This document shows, in pieces, positions 8,818-35,330 of a stretch of DNA of 38,755 bases. Origin of the DNA: Oscillospiraceae bacterium. Lineage in GTDB: Bacteria; Bacillota; Clostridia; Oscillospirales; Oscillospiraceae. Position numbers and translations under genes: made by a program. The notes beneath the pieces were generated by a model. It had not been told where the DNA came from. It saw only the letters and a program-made list of their open reading frames with translations, and made no database searches. How positions within the stretch are numbered: position 1 is the stretch's first letter; each line of letters starts with the position of its first letter. The stretch is from assembly GCA_902761635.1 (NCBI GenBank), contig CACWLG010000052.1:1-38755 (forward strand), in the 5' to 3' direction.

Positions 8818-9762
8818 TTATTTTGCTTTGATGTAGGGCTTGCCGTTGGCAGAGGGAACGCGGGATTTGCCCACGAACAGCACCAGCACGATGACCGTGA
8901 CCACATAGGGGATCATGGAGATGAGCTGCATGTTGATGCCTGAGGAGCCGCCGAGCACGACCTTGAGGCCGGAGCAGAAGCCGAACAGCAGGCAGCCGAG
9001 CAGCGCGCCCTGCGGGCGGAACTTGCCGAAGATAACGGCCGCGATGGCGATAAAGCCCTGGCCCACGATGGAGATAGGCCTGAACTGCGTGGAGATGGCC
9101 ATGGTCACGCACGCGCCGCCGAGACCGGCGAGGAAGCCGGAGATGCACACACAGAGAAAACGCATCCGGATGACGTTGATGCCCAGCGTCTCGCAGGCCT
9201 GGGGATGCTCGCCGCAGGCGCGAAGGCGCAGACCGAAGCGCGTCTTGTAGAAGACAAACCATACGATGGCGACCGCAATAAACACCAGATAGGTGGAGGC
9301 GTAGTTGGCAAAGACGTTGTCCATGAAACGGCCGAACACCGTGGAGGTGTCGAACACGCCGCGGAAGAGGCGGGGGATCTTCATGCTCGCTTCAAGCGGG
9401 ATGGTGTCGGTGGAGTTGAAGAGGACCTTCGCGATCATGATGACGATGCCGGGGCCGAGCATGTTGATGGCGGTGCCGGCGATGGTCTGATCCGCGCCGA
9501 GGTTGACGGTGGCGATGGCGTGCAGCATGCCGAAGAAGGCGCCCGCAAGACCGCCGCAGAGAAAGCCGATCCAGGGGTTTCCGGTAAAGTAGGCCACGAC
9601 GGTGCCTGTGAAAGCGCCGGCGGTCATCATGCCCTCAATGCCGATGTTGACCACGCCCGAAACCTCCGAAAAGCAGGAGCCCAGGGCGGCATACAGCAGC
9701 GGCGTCGTATAGATCAGCGTGGCGTAGAGAATAACGCCGAAGTTGTTCATAAAATTCGTCAT
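8818..9762 (-). CDS. Nucleoside ABC transporter permease (second permease)
   Basis: A 314-residue polytopic membrane protein of the branched-chain/simple-sugar ABC permease family, in the subgroup of BmpA-linked nucleoside transporters (NupQ/YufQ-like). It has about eight to ten helices. Typical segments are GSCFSEVSGVVNIGIEGMM, AGAFFGMLHA, TIAGTAINML, GLRLRACGEHPQACETLGI (the EAA-like cytoplasmic loop contacting the ATPase) and GRGFIAIAA-type FIAIAAVIFGKFRPQGALLG. It pairs with the adjacent permease to form the membrane channel. Its start overlaps the upstream permease stop by 4 bp (9759-9762), showing translational coupling. Confidence 0.93.
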   Translation of the reverse strand: MTNFMNNFGVILYATLIYTTPLLYAALGSCFSEVSGVVNIGIEGMMTAGAFTGTVVAYFTGNPWIGFLCGGLAGAFFGMLHAIATVNLGADQTIAGTAINMLGPGIVIMIAKVLFNSTDTIPLEASMKIPRLFRGVFDTSTVFGRFMDNVFANYASTYLVFIAVAIVWFVFYKTRFGLRLRACGEHPQACETLGINVIRMRFLCVCISGFLAGLGGACVTMAISTQFRPISIVGQGFIAIAAVIFGKFRPQGALLGCLLFGFCSGLKVVLGGSSGINMQLISMIPYVVTVIVLVLFVGKSRVPSANGKPYIKAK

Positions 9763-27912: not shown

Positions 27913-28008
27913 CTTCCGGGGCGTGAATGCACGAATTATTTTCAGCGATCGTTCCGGACCGGGAAACACAGATAACGGCGGCCCGGGATGCCCCGCGCTT
28001 TCACGCGC

Positions 28009-28037
28009 TTGACAAGAACAGGGCCCATGATTATACT
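28009..28037 (+). promoter_or_regulatory. Sigma-A promoter for the esterase-like gene
   Basis: TTGACA (28009-28014), 17 bp, TATACT (28032-28037), 33 bp upstream of the proposed ATG at 28071. Confidence 0.85.
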
Positions 28038-28070: not shown

Positions 28071-30050
28071 ATGAAAAAACTATTTACGATTGATGACTTT
28101 ATGGTTGCCTTCATCTCCGCACTGGGCTACGGCCTCGGCGCTGAGATCCCGATGCTTCTGGGCTGGCCGGGCTGGACGAGTACGCTGGTCAGCATGGCGG
28201 CCGGCATGGCGTTGGAGGAGTTGATCAGCAAAATCGTTTTCAGCAAGCCGATTCAGAGAAACAAGGTGAACCGGATCGTGACGTTTTGCATGATTTTTCT
28301 TGTCTTCCTTCTTTTCCAGCTTTTCGTCTCCAGGTGGTCGAAGGTCTCCCTTTTCGAGTATGTGATGGAAGAGCACCGGAGCGTCATCCTGTATCCGATC
28401 CTGGGCTTCGTCCTGAACATGCTGATCCGCTGGTACAAGGTCCGCAAGGTGCGCGGGCAGTACGGTGACGGAAGCAAGGGCTTCGTCTTTTCGCTCAGCC
28501 AGGAGGATGTTGAGGAGGTAAACCGGGAGAATCAGCCCGTTAAGGGCGAATATGATGCCGGGTGTGCGGTCAGAACAAGAACCGGAACCTTCGTCGGCGT
28601 GAAGACGGACAAGAGCCTTTTCTTTTCCGGCATCCCCTATGCCAGGCCGCCTGTCGGGGAACGCCGCTGGAAAGCGCCCGAGGCACTCCCCGCGTCCGAG
28701 GCCGTGTTCGAGGCGAAATATCCCGGGGCCTCTGCCGTGCAGGTGGACTTTGAGGGCTCCATCCTGAAGCACCACCGGCAGAGTGAGGACTGCCTGACGC
28801 TCAATATCTGCGTCGGCTGCGAAAAGGAAGAGGGGAAAAAGAAGAAAAGACCGGTCCTGGTGTTGTTCCACCACGGCGATTTTTCCTATGGCGGCTCTGC
28901 CGATCCGCTGATGTACGGCGACAGTTTTTCCGAAGCGCACCCGGACATCGTGCTTGTCAGCTTCAACTACCGCCTCGGCATTCTCGGCTTTATCGACTTC
29001 TCCGACGTACCCGGCGGGGAAGCTTATCCCGATGCGCCGAACCTCGGCCTGCTTGACCAGATCGCCGCCCTGCGGTGGATCAGGGAAAACATCGCGGCCT
29101 TCGGGGGCGATCCCGAAAAAATCACCGTGATGGGCTTTGAATCCGGGGCGATCTCCATCAGCCTGCTTGCCGCCTGTGAGGAGGCCAGGGGCCTGTTCCA
29201 GCGGGCCTTCGTGTTCTCCGGCAGTCCCGAAACCGTCTATACCACGCCGGATGCCGCGAGGGATCTGGCGCAGGCGCTCATGAAAGAGACCTCGACTTCA
29301 ACAATGGCGGAGCTTCGGCAGCTCACAGGCGCCCAACTGAAGGAAGCGGCGCAGAAGCTCTGGCTGCACATGGCCGCGCCGACCTGCGACGGAAAGCTGA
29401 TCCCGGTCGATGTATACGACGCCTATCAGAAGGGGGCCGCCTCCGGCATCCGGTTTATCATCGGTATCCCCGGCAACGAAAGGCAGATTTACAGATCGAC
29501 GATCGGCGCGCAGAATTACGAGGCATTTATTCAGAGCTGCTTCGACGTGATCATGCGCTCCCTTGACGAGGAGAACGCGAAAGCCGTCGCGGACTATGTG
29601 CAGGCGCAGACGGCGTCCATGCCGGAGCTTGAAGCCAAGGCGAAGGTCTTTGAGCAGATGAGCGCCCTGTACATGTACCGCAGCGCGCTGAAGCTTTCCG
29701 CGGGTGGGAACAGGGTCCATCTTCTGTACTGGAACGTGAAGCCGCTGATCGAAAATCTGGGCTCGGGCACGGTCGATGTGGCGGCGGCCTTTTTCGGAAA
29801 CGGCGACGCCGCACAGATGTACGGCAATGTGATGGACTCGGATCTGTCGGAGATCCTGCAGAGCTTTCTCGCAAAGTATATCCGCGGGGATGCGCTGCAG
29901 CTTTACAACAATGAAATCAAGGGCGTCGGCGCCATCGAATGGAAGAAATATCCCAAGGCGCTCCTTGTATCCGGCGATGCGCTGCGGTGTGAGCCGATTG
30001 CGGACAGGCTGACAGAGATCAAGGGCCTGCTGGACTTTATCTCGCAATAG
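28071..30050 (+). CDS. Membrane-anchored carboxylesterase-fold protein with broken active site
   Basis: A 659-residue protein. Residues 1-125 contain about three membrane helices (about 11-50, 68-87 and 104-120), and a type B carboxylesterase domain runs from about 160 to the end. The fold is clear: FSGIPYARPPVGERRW (185-200), SEDCLTLNIC (238-247), VSFNYRLGILGF (296-307) and NLGLLDQIAALRWIREN (324-340) before AAFGGDPEKITVMG. The catalytic machinery is not. The nucleophile elbow GESAG reads GFESGA (355-360), with Glu at the serine position. The oxyanion HGGG reads HHGD (267-270). The histidine region near 564-569 reads GSGTVD with no His. A Glu at 470 may match the triad acid. This suggests a pseudoenzyme or binding protein, as neuroligins are among animal cholinesterase-like proteins. 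The ATG is preceded by GGGGGAAAAG. Confidence 0.85.
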   Translation: MKKLFTIDDFMVAFISALGYGLGAEIPMLLGWPGWTSTLVSMAAGMALEELISKIVFSKPIQRNKVNRIVTFCMIFLVFLLFQLFVSRWSKVSLFEYVMEEHRSVILYPILGFVLNMLIRWYKVRKVRGQYGDGSKGFVFSLSQEDVEEVNRENQPVKGEYDAGCAVRTRTGTFVGVKTDKSLFFSGIPYARPPVGERRWKAPEALPASEAVFEAKYPGASAVQVDFEGSILKHHRQSEDCLTLNICVGCEKEEGKKKKRPVLVLFHHGDFSYGGSADPLMYGDSFSEAHPDIVLVSFNYRLGILGFIDFSDVPGGEAYPDAPNLGLLDQIAALRWIRENIAAFGGDPEKITVMGFESGAISISLLAACEEARGLFQRAFVFSGSPETVYTTPDAARDLAQALMKETSTSTMAELRQLTGAQLKEAAQKLWLHMAAPTCDGKLIPVDVYDAYQKGAASGIRFIIGIPGNERQIYRSTIGAQNYEAFIQSCFDVIMRSLDEENAKAVADYVQAQTASMPELEAKAKVFEQMSALYMYRSALKLSAGGNRVHLLYWNVKPLIENLGSGTVDVAAAFFGNGDAAQMYGNVMDSDLSEILQSFLAKYIRGDALQLYNNEIKGVGAIEWKKYPKALLVSGDALRCEPIADRLTEIKGLLDFISQ

Positions 30051-30077: not shown

Positions 30078-30106
30078 TTGACAAGTTCGGCTCCGTTCCA
30101 TATAAT
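30078..30106 (+). promoter_or_regulatory. Perfect-consensus sigma-A promoter for the peptidase gene
   Basis: TTGACA (30078-30083), 17 bp, TATAAT (30101-30106). The leader of about 65 nt contains a stable GC hairpin (CCGCGTCGGC/GCCGGCGCGG, about 30129-30151) without a T-run. It ends shortly before the ribosome site GGGAGGGGG. Confidence 0.9.
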
Positions 30107-30178: not shown

Positions 30179-31150
30179 ATGGAAATGCGGGAAATCCCGA
30201 TTACAGAGATCGGCGTCAAAATCGGTCAGGCGGAGGACCCTGTCGGGGGGACCGGCTGCACGGTCTTCCTGGCCGAGCAGGGGATGTGCGCGGGGCTTGA
30301 CGTCAGCGGCGGCGGCCCGGCATCCAGAGAGAGCGAGCTGCTGCACCCGCTTGCCGCGGCACAGCGCATCCACGCGATCGTGCTCGCCGGCGGCAGCGCC
30401 TTCGGCCTGGGCACGGCAAACGGTGTCATGTCCCTTTTGGAAGAGCGGCAGATCGGGGTAGACGTCGGCGTGACACACGTGCCGCTCGTGGTGCAGTCGG
30501 ATCTTTTCGACCTGACCGTGGGAGATCCCTTTGCCCGCCCGGATGCTGCCATGGGCTTTGAGGCGGCAAGGCGCGCCCTGGAGGCGCCGAACTACCGGGA
30601 CGGCAACTACGGCGCCGGCTGCGGCGCAACGGTCGGCAAATGCGCGGGGATGGATACCTGCATGAAGACCGGGATCGGCAGCTGCGCCGTGCAGCTCGGA
30701 CCGCTCAAGATCGGCGCGGTCGTCGCGCTCAACAGCTTCGGAGATATCTTCGACTGGAAGACGGGCAGGAAGGTCGCCGGTCTCCTGAAAGAGGACAAAA
30801 GCGGCTTCCGCTCCGCAGACGAGGTGATGAAGCAGCACATCTCCCCGGTCGGGAACAAGTTTGCCGGCAACACCACGCTCGGCGTCGTGATGACCAACGC
30901 CGCTTTTGACAAGACGCAGCTCTGCAAGATCGCCGCCATGACGCGCAGCGGTTATGCCCGGTCGATCCGCCCGGTCGGCGCCTCGGTGGACGGGGACAGT
31001 ATCTACGCCGTGTCGGTCGGCCGGGTGCAGGCCGATCAGGATCTCATCGGCGCGCTCGCAGCGGAGCTCATGAGCGAGGCGATCCTGCGCGCCGTATACA
31101 GCGCCGAGAGCGCCTTCGGCTATGTCGCGGCCAGAGACCTGAAGTTCTGA
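30179..31150 (+). CDS. P1-family (DmpA/Oat-like) self-processing aminopeptidase
   Basis: A 323-residue protein of the P1 family (peptidase family S58, DmpA-type), which cuts itself into two chains and uses the new N-terminal Ser or Thr as nucleophile. Landmarks are GGTGCTVFLAEQGMCAGLDV at the N-terminus, HAIVLAGGSAFGLGTANGVM (61-84), NYGAGCGATVGK, the VALNSFGDIFD segment, and the processing site GNTTLGVVMTNA. Cleavage is expected between Asn231 and Thr232. Members act on N-terminal D- or beta-amino acids and small peptide amides or esters. No signal peptide is seen, so it is cytoplasmic. It is driven by a perfect-consensus promoter and followed 47 bp later by the Cache-MscS gene, so the two are probably one operon. 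Confidence 0.92.
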   Translation: MEMREIPITEIGVKIGQAEDPVGGTGCTVFLAEQGMCAGLDVSGGGPASRESELLHPLAAAQRIHAIVLAGGSAFGLGTANGVMSLLEERQIGVDVGVTHVPLVVQSDLFDLTVGDPFARPDAAMGFEAARRALEAPNYRDGNYGAGCGATVGKCAGMDTCMKTGIGSCAVQLGPLKIGAVVALNSFGDIFDWKTGRKVAGLLKEDKSGFRSADEVMKQHISPVGNKFAGNTTLGVVMTNAAFDKTQLCKIAAMTRSGYARSIRPVGASVDGDSIYAVSVGRVQADQDLIGALAAELMSEAILRAVYSAESAFGYVAARDLKF

Positions 31151-31197: not shown

Positions 31198-33816
31198 GTG
31201 AATTCATTTGACCAGTTTTTAGCCCCCTTGCGGGAAAAGAGCGGGAAAAAGCTGATAGGCTTTACGATCGCTGTCTTTCTCATCATCACGATCATAGTAT
31301 TCGGCGCGGCCTTTGAGCTCTGCAGGAATATCGAGCTGAAGGCGATGGATCAGATCCTCAAGAACATACCGAACGTCGCTGAAAGAACCAGGATGGAACT
31401 CCAGATGCGCGGCCGGGTGTACGAGGATGATGTCCTGACCCGCGCAGAGCTCGGCCTGAAGCTCTATGAGGAGGAGAACGAGCTTGCGCAGGCGCAGAAG
31501 CTGGAGCGGGTGCGCAGCATGATTTCCGCGGACGCCGTTTTTGCGCTGGACGAACAGCGGCAGATTCTGGCCTCCGCGGGCACGGGCGCGGATGAGCCTC
31601 TGCGTGCGTGTATCCGGGAGCTGGAGCCGCACGTGCCCCATCTTGAGCTCTATGCCGCCCGCCCGGATGACGGGATGGGGACAGACAGACAGGACGGCAC
31701 GGCCTTCGTGCTGATTCCCCTGCCGGAAAACATAAAGCACAGCCTGGTCTTCGCGTTCTCCAGCCAGAAGATGCTGGAGCTGTACAACGACTACCAAAAC
31801 TGGCCCAGCGTGTTCGAACACATCCTCCCCGGGCAGGAGACGCTCGCCTTTGCCAAAACCGGCGATATGCTGGCGGGCTACCCGATGGACAAGCTGACGG
31901 CGGAACAGTCCGCGAAGCTTCGTGAAGAGGTCACAAAGCTTTTTGAGAACAGCGACAGCTTCCGGTCAAGGGCCGGCAAATGCCCCTCCAAAGTGGTCAC
32001 CCTGCTCGGAGAGATGCATCTTGCGGCGCTGCTGAACTATCCGGAACAGAATACGGATATCCTGATGGCGGTACCGCTGAATGAGGTGATCCGATCCGGC
32101 GTTTACAGCGCCATTACGATTTCGGCCTTCATCGGCCTGGGGATCGTGCTGCTCCAGATCTACGCGATACGCAATCTGTCCCGCGTGAAGGCTCTGGGAG
32201 AAGGCAAGCAGTTTCGGAAGCTGGTGCGCCGGGCGGCATTGCCGGGACTGCTGGTGCTGCTTGTGGTCACCGTCCTCTTCGCGGCCATGCTTCTGATGCT
32301 GGAGAGCCGGACAAACTCGTCCTATTTAGCAATGTCCAAGCTGGAGGGCATCCAGCGTGAGATTAACTGGCAGGATAAACAGAAGGGCTTTATCCGCAGC
32401 ACCTTTGCCGAGCTCTATCGGACACGCGCACAGGCGCTTGCCGATTTCCTGGAGGATCATCCGGAGGCCATGACGCGCGAAGGCCTGCAGGAGATGAACA
32501 GCATCGCCGGGACCGATTATCTCATGTGCTTTGACCGCAGCGGACAGGAGCGTGTCTCGAGCAACAGCTACACGGGCTTTTCCGTCGGCGCGAACCTCAG
32601 CGAGGAATACCAGGCGGTACTGTTGGGTTATCCCTATGCGGTCGTCGGCCCGGCGGCGGATCCCTATACTGGCCGCGTCCAGCTTGGTACGGCGATCCTG
32701 ATGACGGACAGGCAGGGGAATCCGGACGGCTTCCTTCTGGCCGTCTACAGCGCGGAGGAGCTGAACGCAGAGCTCGAGCGGATGAGCTATGAAAGCACGG
32801 TCAACAGCTTCGCTGTCCAGCCTGGCCATATCGCGGCTGCGATCAGCGACGAGAACGGCTGCTTCATCGCCCACTCCGACCCCGGTATGATCGGCCAGAG
32901 GGCGGAAAACTATGTGGACGATTATGAGCCCGGCAGGAGCTTCGAGGGCTTCACCGATTATAACGGGAAGAGCGTTTATCTGTCCGCCAGATCGGCAGAC
33001 GGAAAGACCCTCCTGTACATGGTACCCGAGGGATGGGACGCCCATGCAAAGAATATCACCGTGCTGATGGCCGCGATCATCGTGCTGATCCTGGCGCTGG
33101 TGTATTATCCGGTGGCGATCGAACTGAGCGCAAAGGCGGTGCTGGAGGCGAAGGACAAGGTCCAGGTGCTCGTGAGACCGGGCAGCGCCATCAAGGTCTT
33201 TTCCGACGGCTACGTCATTTTCCTGACGATCCTTGCGATCTTCGCACTGCTTGCCTCCGTCAGGGGCTGGTGGTCGTCCTTTGCCTATGTTTTCAGCGGG
33301 CAGTGGTCCAAGGGCGTGCATCTGTTTTCCATCTGGGCAGCCCTGTTCATCACGGCTGTCACGCTCTGCCTCGTCTTCGTGATCAGGCTCATCCTGCACT
33401 ATGCGGAAAGCCGACTCAGCCTCCGGGCGAAGACGATCACGCGGCTTGCCGACAGTCTCGTCTCCTACGTCGCGGGCATCTTCCTCGCCTTCTGCGTGCT
33501 GGACATGTTCGGCGTCAACACCACGGCGCTGCTGGCCTCGGCCGGTATCGTCACCATCGCTGTCGGCATGGGCGCACAGAGCATGGCGTCTGACCTGCTT
33601 GCGGGCTTCTTCATGATGCTCGAGGGCTCCATCCATGTGGGCGACCATGTGACTGCCGGGGGCGTCACGGGCTATGTCACGGACATGGGGATACGGACCA
33701 CGGAGATCACCGATGAAAACGGAAACGTCGTGATCCTCAGCAACAGCCGGGTCGGCAACATCCTCAACATGAGCCGCAAGGAGGCCGAAGCGACAGACGA
33801 AATAAGTCTTACCTGA
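31198..33816 (+). CDS. MscS-type channel fused to two extracytoplasmic Cache-like sensor domains
   Basis: An 872-residue membrane protein. Helix one is at about 19-40, a first outside domain at 41-301, then helices at about 302-324 and 348-369. A second outside domain (370-617) has Cache-like strands, such as DYLMCFDRSGQERVSSNS, QLGTAILMTDRQGN and AAAISDENGCFIAHSDPGMIG. Helices at about 618-637, 670-690 and 708-734 precede the MscS core: 755-773, then the pore helix GIVTIAVGMGAQSMASDLLA (783-802), then the beta domain SIHVGDHV...GYVTDMGIRTTEI..GNVVILSNSRVGNILN. It stops about 10 residues later, so the C-terminal alpha/beta cage of MscS is missing. The start is a GTG with a weak AAGGCGGG site. 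The layout suggests a ligand-gated or ligand-tuned channel (inference). Confidence 0.88.
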   Translation: MNSFDQFLAPLREKSGKKLIGFTIAVFLIITIIVFGAAFELCRNIELKAMDQILKNIPNVAERTRMELQMRGRVYEDDVLTRAELGLKLYEEENELAQAQKLERVRSMISADAVFALDEQRQILASAGTGADEPLRACIRELEPHVPHLELYAARPDDGMGTDRQDGTAFVLIPLPENIKHSLVFAFSSQKMLELYNDYQNWPSVFEHILPGQETLAFAKTGDMLAGYPMDKLTAEQSAKLREEVTKLFENSDSFRSRAGKCPSKVVTLLGEMHLAALLNYPEQNTDILMAVPLNEVIRSGVYSAITISAFIGLGIVLLQIYAIRNLSRVKALGEGKQFRKLVRRAALPGLLVLLVVTVLFAAMLLMLESRTNSSYLAMSKLEGIQREINWQDKQKGFIRSTFAELYRTRAQALADFLEDHPEAMTREGLQEMNSIAGTDYLMCFDRSGQERVSSNSYTGFSVGANLSEEYQAVLLGYPYAVVGPAADPYTGRVQLGTAILMTDRQGNPDGFLLAVYSAEELNAELERMSYESTVNSFAVQPGHIAAAISDENGCFIAHSDPGMIGQRAENYVDDYEPGRSFEGFTDYNGKSVYLSARSADGKTLLYMVPEGWDAHAKNITVLMAAIIVLILALVYYPVAIELSAKAVLEAKDKVQVLVRPGSAIKVFSDGYVIFLTILAIFALLASVRGWWSSFAYVFSGQWSKGVHLFSIWAALFITAVTLCLVFVIRLILHYAESRLSLRAKTITRLADSLVSYVAGIFLAFCVLDMFGVNTTALLASAGIVTIAVGMGAQSMASDLLAGFFMMLEGSIHVGDHVTAGGVTGYVTDMGIRTTEITDENGNVVILSNSRVGNILNMSRKEAEATDEISLT

Positions 33817-33875: not shown

Positions 33876-35330
33876 TTACGCGGCGGCACCGCTGTAAAAT
33901 TCAGCCTGCACGGGAACGGTCTGGATCAGGACCGAGCTCTGGTGGAAGGTCTCTACCAGCTCGTCGGCTGCGGCATGCACGGCCTCCAACGTCGTGTCGT
34001 TGAGATAGATCACAAGCGTGTACTCCTGGTAGAGCGTATCGCCGTCCACCCAGCCGCCGTTTGCCTCCTGTATGGTGTAGCCGCCGAAGTGGCGCACCAG
34101 GATCTCCTTGGCCTTCTCCTGGGCCTCTGCCTGGGTAAACACGGGCTTGTTGGTATCCTTGTGATTGGTGCCGAGATACATGACGTACTGGACGCCCGCC
34201 TCTGTCCCGGCCTCAGCCTCTTCCGCAGCCGGGGCGGCGTCCCGGGTGTCGGCCAGATCGTTCAGCCAGTTGAAGGTGCCCGTCTTGACCACCTTGTCGC
34301 CGTAGATGGTGCGGAAATCGTCGCGCATGGAGATCGCATGGAAGCCTGCGTCGGCCCACTGGGCCTTGAGCTTCTCGCCCTTTTCGGGATTGCCGTAGTC
34401 GCGCGCGTCGTCGTCCGCAACCAGCATGAAGGCCGCGCTGCGGTAGGGGTTGTCGCTGATTGTGTACAGGTGCATGCTCACGTCGCCGCTGGAGTTGCCG
34501 AAGGAGAGCACCGGCTTACGGCCGATCTCCTGGACGATCTGCTCGACCTTGTTCATTTTCAGGTTCTTGACGAGCAGCTTGTCGGTGCGGATAATGTCGT
34601 CCCCGGCATTGAAGACATAGTTCAAACCGTCTTCACCGTGCTGGCCGGTCGCCTCGACCCCGATGTCCATGCCGATGATATTCTCGTAGGGAATGTCCAG
34701 CATGCCCTCAATAAAGGTGCGGCAGATGAAACGGTCGCTGCCGGAGCAGACAAAGACCTTGAAATCGTTGTCCTGCAGGTAATCCACGACCTCGATCATG
34801 GGGGTGTAGAAGGCAGTGGCGTAGGTCATGCCTTCAAAGCCGTCCACCTTGCGGATGAGGCAGCCGGTCACGAAGTCGGCAAACTCCTTGAGCGTCATGC
34901 CGGCGTAAGCCTTCGCCGCGTGCGTGGCGTGAAGCATGTCCATGTTGTCGGGAAAGGACTTGTCGAGCGCGTGATCCCGCAGCATGCGTCCAAACGCCAG
35001 CATCTCCGCGTCCGGGGTGTAGTTGGGGTCCTTCAGAATGCGCCAGGCGAGCAGGTAGTACTCCAGATAGCTCGGGCAGAGCTCGGCGCAGAGGGTGCCG
35101 TCCATATCAAATACGGCGATACGGTCGGCGGGCGGGATATAGTCGGGGGAGGACTGATCCGTCACCGCCTCCACATACTCGATCAGCGCCCCGAGGGCGG
35201 GCGCGCCGTCGTTCCAGTCGGCAAAGATTTCTTCGGTCTCTGTGTCCTCTCCCTCCGCAGAGGCCTTGATGCAGGAGCACAGACCCAGCAGCAGGACAAG
35301 GACCAGACCAAGCGCGATAAGTTTCTTCAT
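33876..35330 (-). CDS. HAD-superfamily phosphatase lipoprotein with extra C-terminal domain
   Basis: A 484-residue exported protein. The signal peptide MKKLIALGLVLVLLLGLCSC carries a lipobox-like LCSC, so it is probably a lipoprotein. The HAD domain (about 70-355) has motif I FDMDGTL at 74-80 (Asp nucleophile and general acid), motif II in VFVCSGSD, a motif III lysine after motif II, and motif IV in FGNSSGDVSMH. It is closest in layout to phosphoserine-phosphatase-like HAD proteins. After a 25-residue Ala/Glu-rich linker comes a separate domain (about 377-484): YVMYLGTNHKDTNKP, AKEILVRHFGGYTIQEANGG, QEYTLVIYLND and a final QSSVLIQ strand. That looks like DUF3574. The fusion is unusual. The ATG has AAAGGAG 8 bases upstream. 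It follows the GH13 gene by 45 bp, in one operon. Confidence 0.85.
   Translation of the reverse strand: MKKLIALGLVLVLLLGLCSCIKASAEGEDTETEEIFADWNDGAPALGALIEYVEAVTDQSSPDYIPPADRIAVFDMDGTLCAELCPSYLEYYLLAWRILKDPNYTPDAEMLAFGRMLRDHALDKSFPDNMDMLHATHAAKAYAGMTLKEFADFVTGCLIRKVDGFEGMTYATAFYTPMIEVVDYLQDNDFKVFVCSGSDRFICRTFIEGMLDIPYENIIGMDIGVEATGQHGEDGLNYVFNAGDDIIRTDKLLVKNLKMNKVEQIVQEIGRKPVLSFGNSSGDVSMHLYTISDNPYRSAAFMLVADDDARDYGNPEKGEKLKAQWADAGFHAISMRDDFRTIYGDKVVKTGTFNWLNDLADTRDAAPAAEEAEAGTEAGVQYVMYLGTNHKDTNKPVFTQAEAQEKAKEILVRHFGGYTIQEANGGWVDGDTLYQEYTLVIYLNDTTLEAVHAAADELVETFHQSSVLIQTVPVQAEFYSGAAA

Follow-up and report, generated by a model that had tools for sequence, protein, structure and literature searches.

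A reading frame at positions 28071-30050 of the forward strand of the window (the whole stretch of 38,755 nucleotides that was analysed) is real and encodes a membrane-anchored protein with a carboxylesterase (COesterase) fold, in which the nucleophile serine, the catalytic histidine and the last oxyanion residue are replaced. The replacements are shared across a family of 11 members, and the family gene is under purifying selection and is not decaying. Judged from the aligned sequences, esterase catalysis has very probably been lost. Chances are about even that the protein is, more specifically, a cytosol-facing, non-hydrolytic COesterase-fold pseudoenzyme whose former active site has become an acidic pocket for binding or regulation. 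An earlier note on this DNA had described a membrane-anchored bacterial carboxylesterase pseudoenzyme, and the sequence comparisons support that description. The features of the gene are as follows (positions are those of the window).

28009..28037, + strand: promoter-like TTGACA-17-TATACT, 11/12 (consensus match only)
28071..30050, + strand: family gene, 659 codons and a stop (N-terminal membrane domain of four segments, then a pseudoenzyme domain with the COesterase fold)
28080..28436, + strand: four membrane-like segments, residues 4-22, 39-57, 69-87 and 104-122, weakly GtrA/DPMS-like (hydropathy scan)
28551..30047, + strand: carboxylesterase-fold domain, residues 161-659 (profile and structure-relative matches)
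28869..28880, + strand: oxyanion motif, HGGG/S/A changed to HHGD, residues 267-270 (alignments)
29133..29147, + strand: nucleophile elbow, GESAG changed to GFESG, residues 355-359 (alignments)
29478..29480, + strand: Glu470, catalytic-acid position retained (alignments)
29757..29771, + strand: LGSGT, residues 563-567, with Thr567 in the catalytic-His column (multiple alignments)

Gene, esterase fold and active-site columns

The ATG at 28071 is preceded by GGGGGAAAAG, and the stop codon ends at 30050. An earlier in-frame ATG is present at 27927; the start at 28071 was favoured because of the promoter-like site, a ribosome-binding-like stretch (GGGGGAA) between that site and the ATG, and the annotated start of the Selenomonas ruminantium homologue (position 9001 of locus L059).

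Residues 167-501 matched Pfam COesterase (PF00135) with E 4.3e-70 and a score of 237.6 bits, above the curated cut-off of 27, which bears out the earlier claim that the esterase fold is kept. The best solved relatives of the window protein were Est50 (2ogs/2ogt, 1.2e-55) and p-nitrobenzyl esterase (1qe3, 4.7e-48). Comparing profiles with five canonical esterases gave a probability of 100 across residues 165-556; this profile-profile alignment ends before the His region, and the placement of Thr567 comes from the multiple alignments only. Structure predictions reached a mean pLDDT of 33.4 (window protein and L006) and 38.7 (esterase domain with L006 and L067), models too weak for side-chain placement, and the acidic pocket is drawn from homology. 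When the 38.7-pLDDT model was searched against the PDB, carboxylesterases and cholinesterases were among the matches listed, with TM-scores of 0.22-0.29 in the best 50 except for one partial chain (0.46), which adds little beyond the sequence.

In alignments relative to solved structures, GFESG fell gap-free on GESAG, with Glu357 at the nucleophile position and Ser358 one place on, and HHGD fell on HGGA, with Asp270 as the last oxyanion-motif residue. The active-site columns were compared between the 11 family members and 30 control frames (29 loci, fetched among matches to relatives and not a random sample). Column 357 held Glu or Asp in 10/11 members and Ser in 29/30 controls, the thirtieth being a misaligned fragment. 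Asp occupied column 270 in 11/11 members, against Ser, Gly or Ala in 29/29 controls with a letter, and Thr occupied column 567 in all 10 readable members, against His in 28/28 controls with a letter. The catalytic-acid column, 470, held Glu in 11/11 members and Glu or Asp in 29/29 controls with a letter, a count that includes one letter from the misaligned fragment. Control elbows read GESAG (20), GQSAG (5) and GQSGG (4), with one misaligned fragment, and control oxyanion motifs HGGS (13), HGGG (9), HGGA (5) and YGGG (2), with one gap. His was present in 28 of the 30 control frames; the remaining two are fragments, L025 at a contig end and L036|686, the 5' piece of a split frame whose elbow is misaligned.

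Of the features expected in a serine esterase, the window protein thus lacks the nucleophile Ser, the catalytic His and the oxyanion HGG(G/A/S), and has the catalytic Glu. The three altered features first read from the letters (the GFESG elbow, the HHGD oxyanion motif and a histidine region without His, where Thr567 now stands) held up when aligned against the controls. Because the pattern is conserved in 11 homologues, the replaced residues are neither chance nor sequencing error. Across the family the elbow is GFESG in nine members, GFDAG in L044 and GDSSG in L048. The last of these, the most distant member, has kept a serine nucleophile with the His and the oxyanion residue replaced, and its sequence suggests that these two were replaced earlier than the nucleophile.

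Family distribution, tree and selection

The family counts 11 members, all of which were aligned (L063 is cut by a contig end): nine in 102 genomes of the same genus and one in another genus, located with a membrane-domain profile, and one plasmid copy in S. ruminantium, a rumen species. The profile matched 1/7 genomes in the genus of G333, and 5/300 and 5/400 genomes in two overlapping family-level draws. Each draw returned one GtrA-like protein and four carriers, which were identical in the two and included the genome of the window; neither 394 genomes of the order nor 398 of the phylum yielded a convincing new carrier. Weak profile matches in G395, G546 and G846 were not counted (L045, from G395, has no frame matching the esterase). 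A weak match in G322 was rejected as a family member, being a small GtrA-like protein (L046). Loci that were the same place were counted once (L006 and L053 = L060, L008 = L047, L009 = L048). No homologue combining an intact active site with the same membrane domain, the kind of close homologue that the earlier note had set against its own reading, was found in the 102 genus, 300/400 family, 394 order and 398 phylum genomes.

A full-length copy with 56.7% identity and the motifs kept is carried by plasmid pSRC1 of S. ruminantium TAM6421. Of 72,556 plasmid records, 249 matched; pSRC1 was the only one matched along 80% or more of the query. Searches of viral contigs found no family relative (one canonical esterase, L067, was matched), and the seven matches in phage records were partial, none spanning 80% of the query. 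At its locus (L059, NC_017078.1 226913-246898) a HAD gene immediately follows the plasmid copy, and a two-partner secretion pair also lies downstream.

A tree was built from 39/41 rows, L025 and L036|1425 being too short, and was rooted at the midpoint, with several long branches among the controls. The 11 members formed one group with 100/100 support, and L048 was the sister of the other members, provided that the root lies outside the family group. This single group and the column contrast with the controls mark the replaced residues as a family trait, and the check proposed at the outset, an alignment of homologues, accordingly found the changes fixed in the family. The place of the S. ruminantium copy inside the family tree suggests that it was acquired by horizontal transfer.

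Whole-gene dN/dS (Nei-Gojobori, four pairs) was 0.30 for the window gene and L060, 0.11 for L047 and L064, and 0.18 for L061 and L062, all close pairs, and 0.20 for the window gene and L044, the last with synonymous change near saturation. For the window gene and L060 the ratio was higher in the membrane part (0.56) than in the esterase part (0.23). Frames were intact in all 10 complete members.

Membrane domain and gene neighbourhood

Hydropathy scanning found four hydrophobic segments in each of the 11 members. The fused N-terminal membrane domain noted earlier was therefore confirmed, and its three helices were corrected to four. Each member has 4-5 Lys/Arg at residues 57-69, after segment 2, and 5-7 at residues 120-136, after segment 4; from the four segments and these Lys/Arg-rich stretches the esterase-like domain is predicted to be cytosolic. 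For the GtrA protein GtcA, the loop between helices 2 and 3 is predicted to be inside and that between helices 3 and 4 outside (PMC7389260), and the predicted loop arrangement of the family is the same.

Likeness to GtrA (PF04138) was weak and recurrent. Five of nine membrane domains matched PF04138 with E values of 0.5 or lower, the lowest being 1.9e-4. This made it the most frequent and strongest of the 21 families listed; each of the 20 others also matched at least one member within that limit. The window protein scored 12.7 bits, below the curated cut-off of 26.1. In hhalign, the match to GtrA covered 40 columns of helices 1-2 (3.8e-5, probability 71). Its score was 34.7; the highest of 60 column shuffles reached 22.0, and a control with the halves swapped still scored 27.2. 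The seed of the GtrA alignment was itself a protein first found by the family's own profile; given that seed and the halves-swapped score, the signal is in part general membrane character. GtcA needs R95 and N132, and some residues are conserved in >99% of its relatives (PMC7389260); in helices 3 and 4 the joint alignment with the family is too uncertain for a reliable match.

Membrane fusion is ordinary among these relatives, since 14/30 controls carry three membrane segments before the esterase domain, with the active site intact where readable. These three-segment esterases, with an intact-looking site where it can be read, are L001, L014, L016, L017, L019, L022, L024, L028-L033 and L036. 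In the 12 of 14 that were checked, there are 2-8 Lys/Arg before segment 1 and 1-4 after segment 3, a partial agreement of charges.

Downstream of the family gene lies the following gene.

31198..33816, + strand: Cache-MscS mechanosensitive channel gene, 872 aa (Cache-like sensor region, C-terminal MscS channel domain)

A full-length relative of this channel (at least 50% identity) was found in 6/102 genus genomes and the pseudoenzyme in 9/102. Both genes occur in five genus genomes, the window's included, and are neighbours in 5/5, in two arrangements. The co-occurrence gave a hypergeometric P of 8.8e-6 without correction for kinship, the real weight of which is smaller, because the five genomes represent about two lineages and the 50% cut-off was chosen after the list had been viewed. 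The full-length channel was not found in 4/9 genus carriers, some of whose genomes are incomplete, and G714 has a full-length channel without the pseudoenzyme. Some channel match, mostly the MscS part alone, was present in 93/102 genus genomes. An S58-family peptidase gene lies at 30179-31150 (+), with a perfect TTGACA-17-TATAAT ahead of it at 30078-30106; as promoter-like sites precede both the window gene and this next gene, no operon with the channel is indicated.

Other neighbours recur in part of the family. A HAD phosphatase gene at 33876-35330 (-), lipoprotein-like and with a C-terminal DUF3574 part, is near the family gene in the window and L060 and adjacent to it in S. ruminantium; a specific link was considered and is not claimed, whole or partial relatives being present in 58/102 genus genomes. 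Two further genes lie near the family gene: one with DUF937 in the window, L061 and L062, the other, with DUF308, in L047, L063 and L064. Pfam assignments were made for the window copy of the first and the L047 copy of the second; other copies were assigned by clustering.

Proposed role, alternatives and known systems

In the proposed explanation, the four-segment, weakly GtrA-like membrane domain would keep the esterase-like domain on the cytosolic side of the membrane. As a family trait, the Ser-His pair and the oxyanion glycine are replaced, with Glu470 and the scaffold retained under purifying selection. The old active site would have turned into an acidic pocket lined by two or three carboxylates (Asp270, Glu357 and Glu470, placed by homology). 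Such a pocket may bind a cation, a metal or a small cationic ligand, or may support a protein contact. Anchored in the membrane, the protein would then serve as a sensor or a scaffold, and some family members may have a link to the neighbouring Cache-MscS channel. A binding and regulatory role is put forward tentatively. A more elaborate version, which we regard as speculative and unlikely, would have the GtrA-like domain joined to a cytosolic receptor whose converted site binds a metal, a cationic metabolite or a metal-bridged polyprenyl-phosphate headgroup and signals to the Cache-MscS channel or to envelope machinery.

Alternatively, the membrane half of the pseudoenzyme could be the part that works, transporting lipid carriers in the manner of GtrA, and the esterase-like half would do no more than act as a scaffold or an allosteric lid in the cytosol. 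Proteins of the GtrA family have been proposed to flip undecaprenyl-phosphate-linked sugars (PMC7389260), and the GtrA-like signal was repeated across profile searches and hhalign. The Pfam scores are nevertheless sub-threshold, and the residues conserved in more than 99% of GtcA relatives (by the same source) are not reliably matched in the family, so that we regard a transporter as unlikely.

An acidic residue at the nucleophile position in 10/11 members, together with the kept Glu470, would also fit a hydrolase with new chemistry, in which Glu/Asp357 serves as a carboxylate nucleophile. Among enzymes of this fold class, haloalkane dehalogenases and epoxide hydrolases use a carboxylate nucleophile with a His base. 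That base is missing in the family, L048 has Ser and not an acid, and Asp270 at the oxyanion position would be expected to repel an anionic intermediate; new hydrolytic chemistry is accordingly improbable.

The earlier note had been reminded of neuroligins, and an extracellular adhesion protein of that kind would share with the family a lost triad, a kept scaffold and a membrane anchor; neuroligins are also among the solved relatives. The comparison is not supported on topology, as the charges and the segment number of four predict a cytosolic domain, whereas that of neuroligin is an ectodomain (PMC5943944). In sequence, too, neuroligins are no closer than bacterial esterases (2wqz 4.6e-51 vs 2ogs 3.9e-72), and a neuroligin-like role appears very improbable.

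The fallback offered in the earlier note, an esterase still active through a nucleophile shifted one residue to Ser358, can draw on Ser358 in 10/11 members and fails across the family. The L044 elbow (GFDAG) has no serine, the catalytic column holds His in 0/10 readable members, and the oxyanion position is Asp in 11/11. The only invariant family His residues, His235 and His267, also occur in controls (15 and 27), and neither looks like a relocated base, leaving this reading scarcely credible. Least credible is a decaying gene without function. The patchy presence (9/102 genus genomes) would speak for decay; on the other side, the frame is unbroken in each of the 10 complete members, dN/dS is 0.11-0.30, family-specific residues are conserved, and the plasmid copy from another bacterial class still has the motifs.

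A cytosol-facing pseudoenzyme thus remains the preferred reading. In animals, the cholinesterase/carboxylesterase scaffold is known to serve non-catalytic roles in neuroligin, glutactin, gliotactin, neurotactin and thyroglobulin (PMC5943944). A bacterial family of non-catalytic COesterase proteins was not found in a limited literature search (mostly titles and abstract openings), nor was the fusion of a GtrA-like membrane domain to an esterase fold in a limited search. The dead cholinesterase-like domain is already known from animals, and a bacterial family with fixed replacements is apparently undescribed within the reach of those searches. If the reading is true, a fixed and selected bacterial family, including a plasmid copy in another class, would mean that the scaffold has been recruited for binding in bacteria too, and L048 suggests a testable order of active-site loss. 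Annotations as 'carboxylesterase family protein', e.g., WP_014431236.1 (S. ruminantium), can mislead on activity.

Compared with type-B carboxylesterases (2ogs, 2ogt, 1qe3), the window protein has kept SED, NYR, AFGGDP, the elbow surroundings and Glu470. Against Geobacillus Est50/EST55 and 1qe3, the family has other residues in place of the nucleophile Ser, the catalytic His and the final residue of the oxyanion motif, and adds the four-segment N-terminal membrane domain, with a predicted cytosolic placement. The three-segment esterases (L001 and others) retain Ser, His and HGG(G/S/A) where readable and lie outside the family's tree group; their odd segment number suggests an outside domain, unlike the cytosolic prediction for the family. 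With GtrA/GtcA (PF04138) the family shares four segments, a similarity strongest in helices 1-2 and colinear elsewhere when forced, and F57-S58 near the F-x-S after helix 2 of the GtrA rows; it differs in falling below the Pfam cut-off and in its fusion to an esterase-fold domain. With neuroligins and other cholinesterase-like non-catalytic proteins it has in common a COesterase fold without a working triad, as judged here by sequence; neuroligins are animal ectodomains (PMC5943944) with no special sequence closeness, whereas the family has four membrane segments and an esterase-like domain predicted to face the cytosol.
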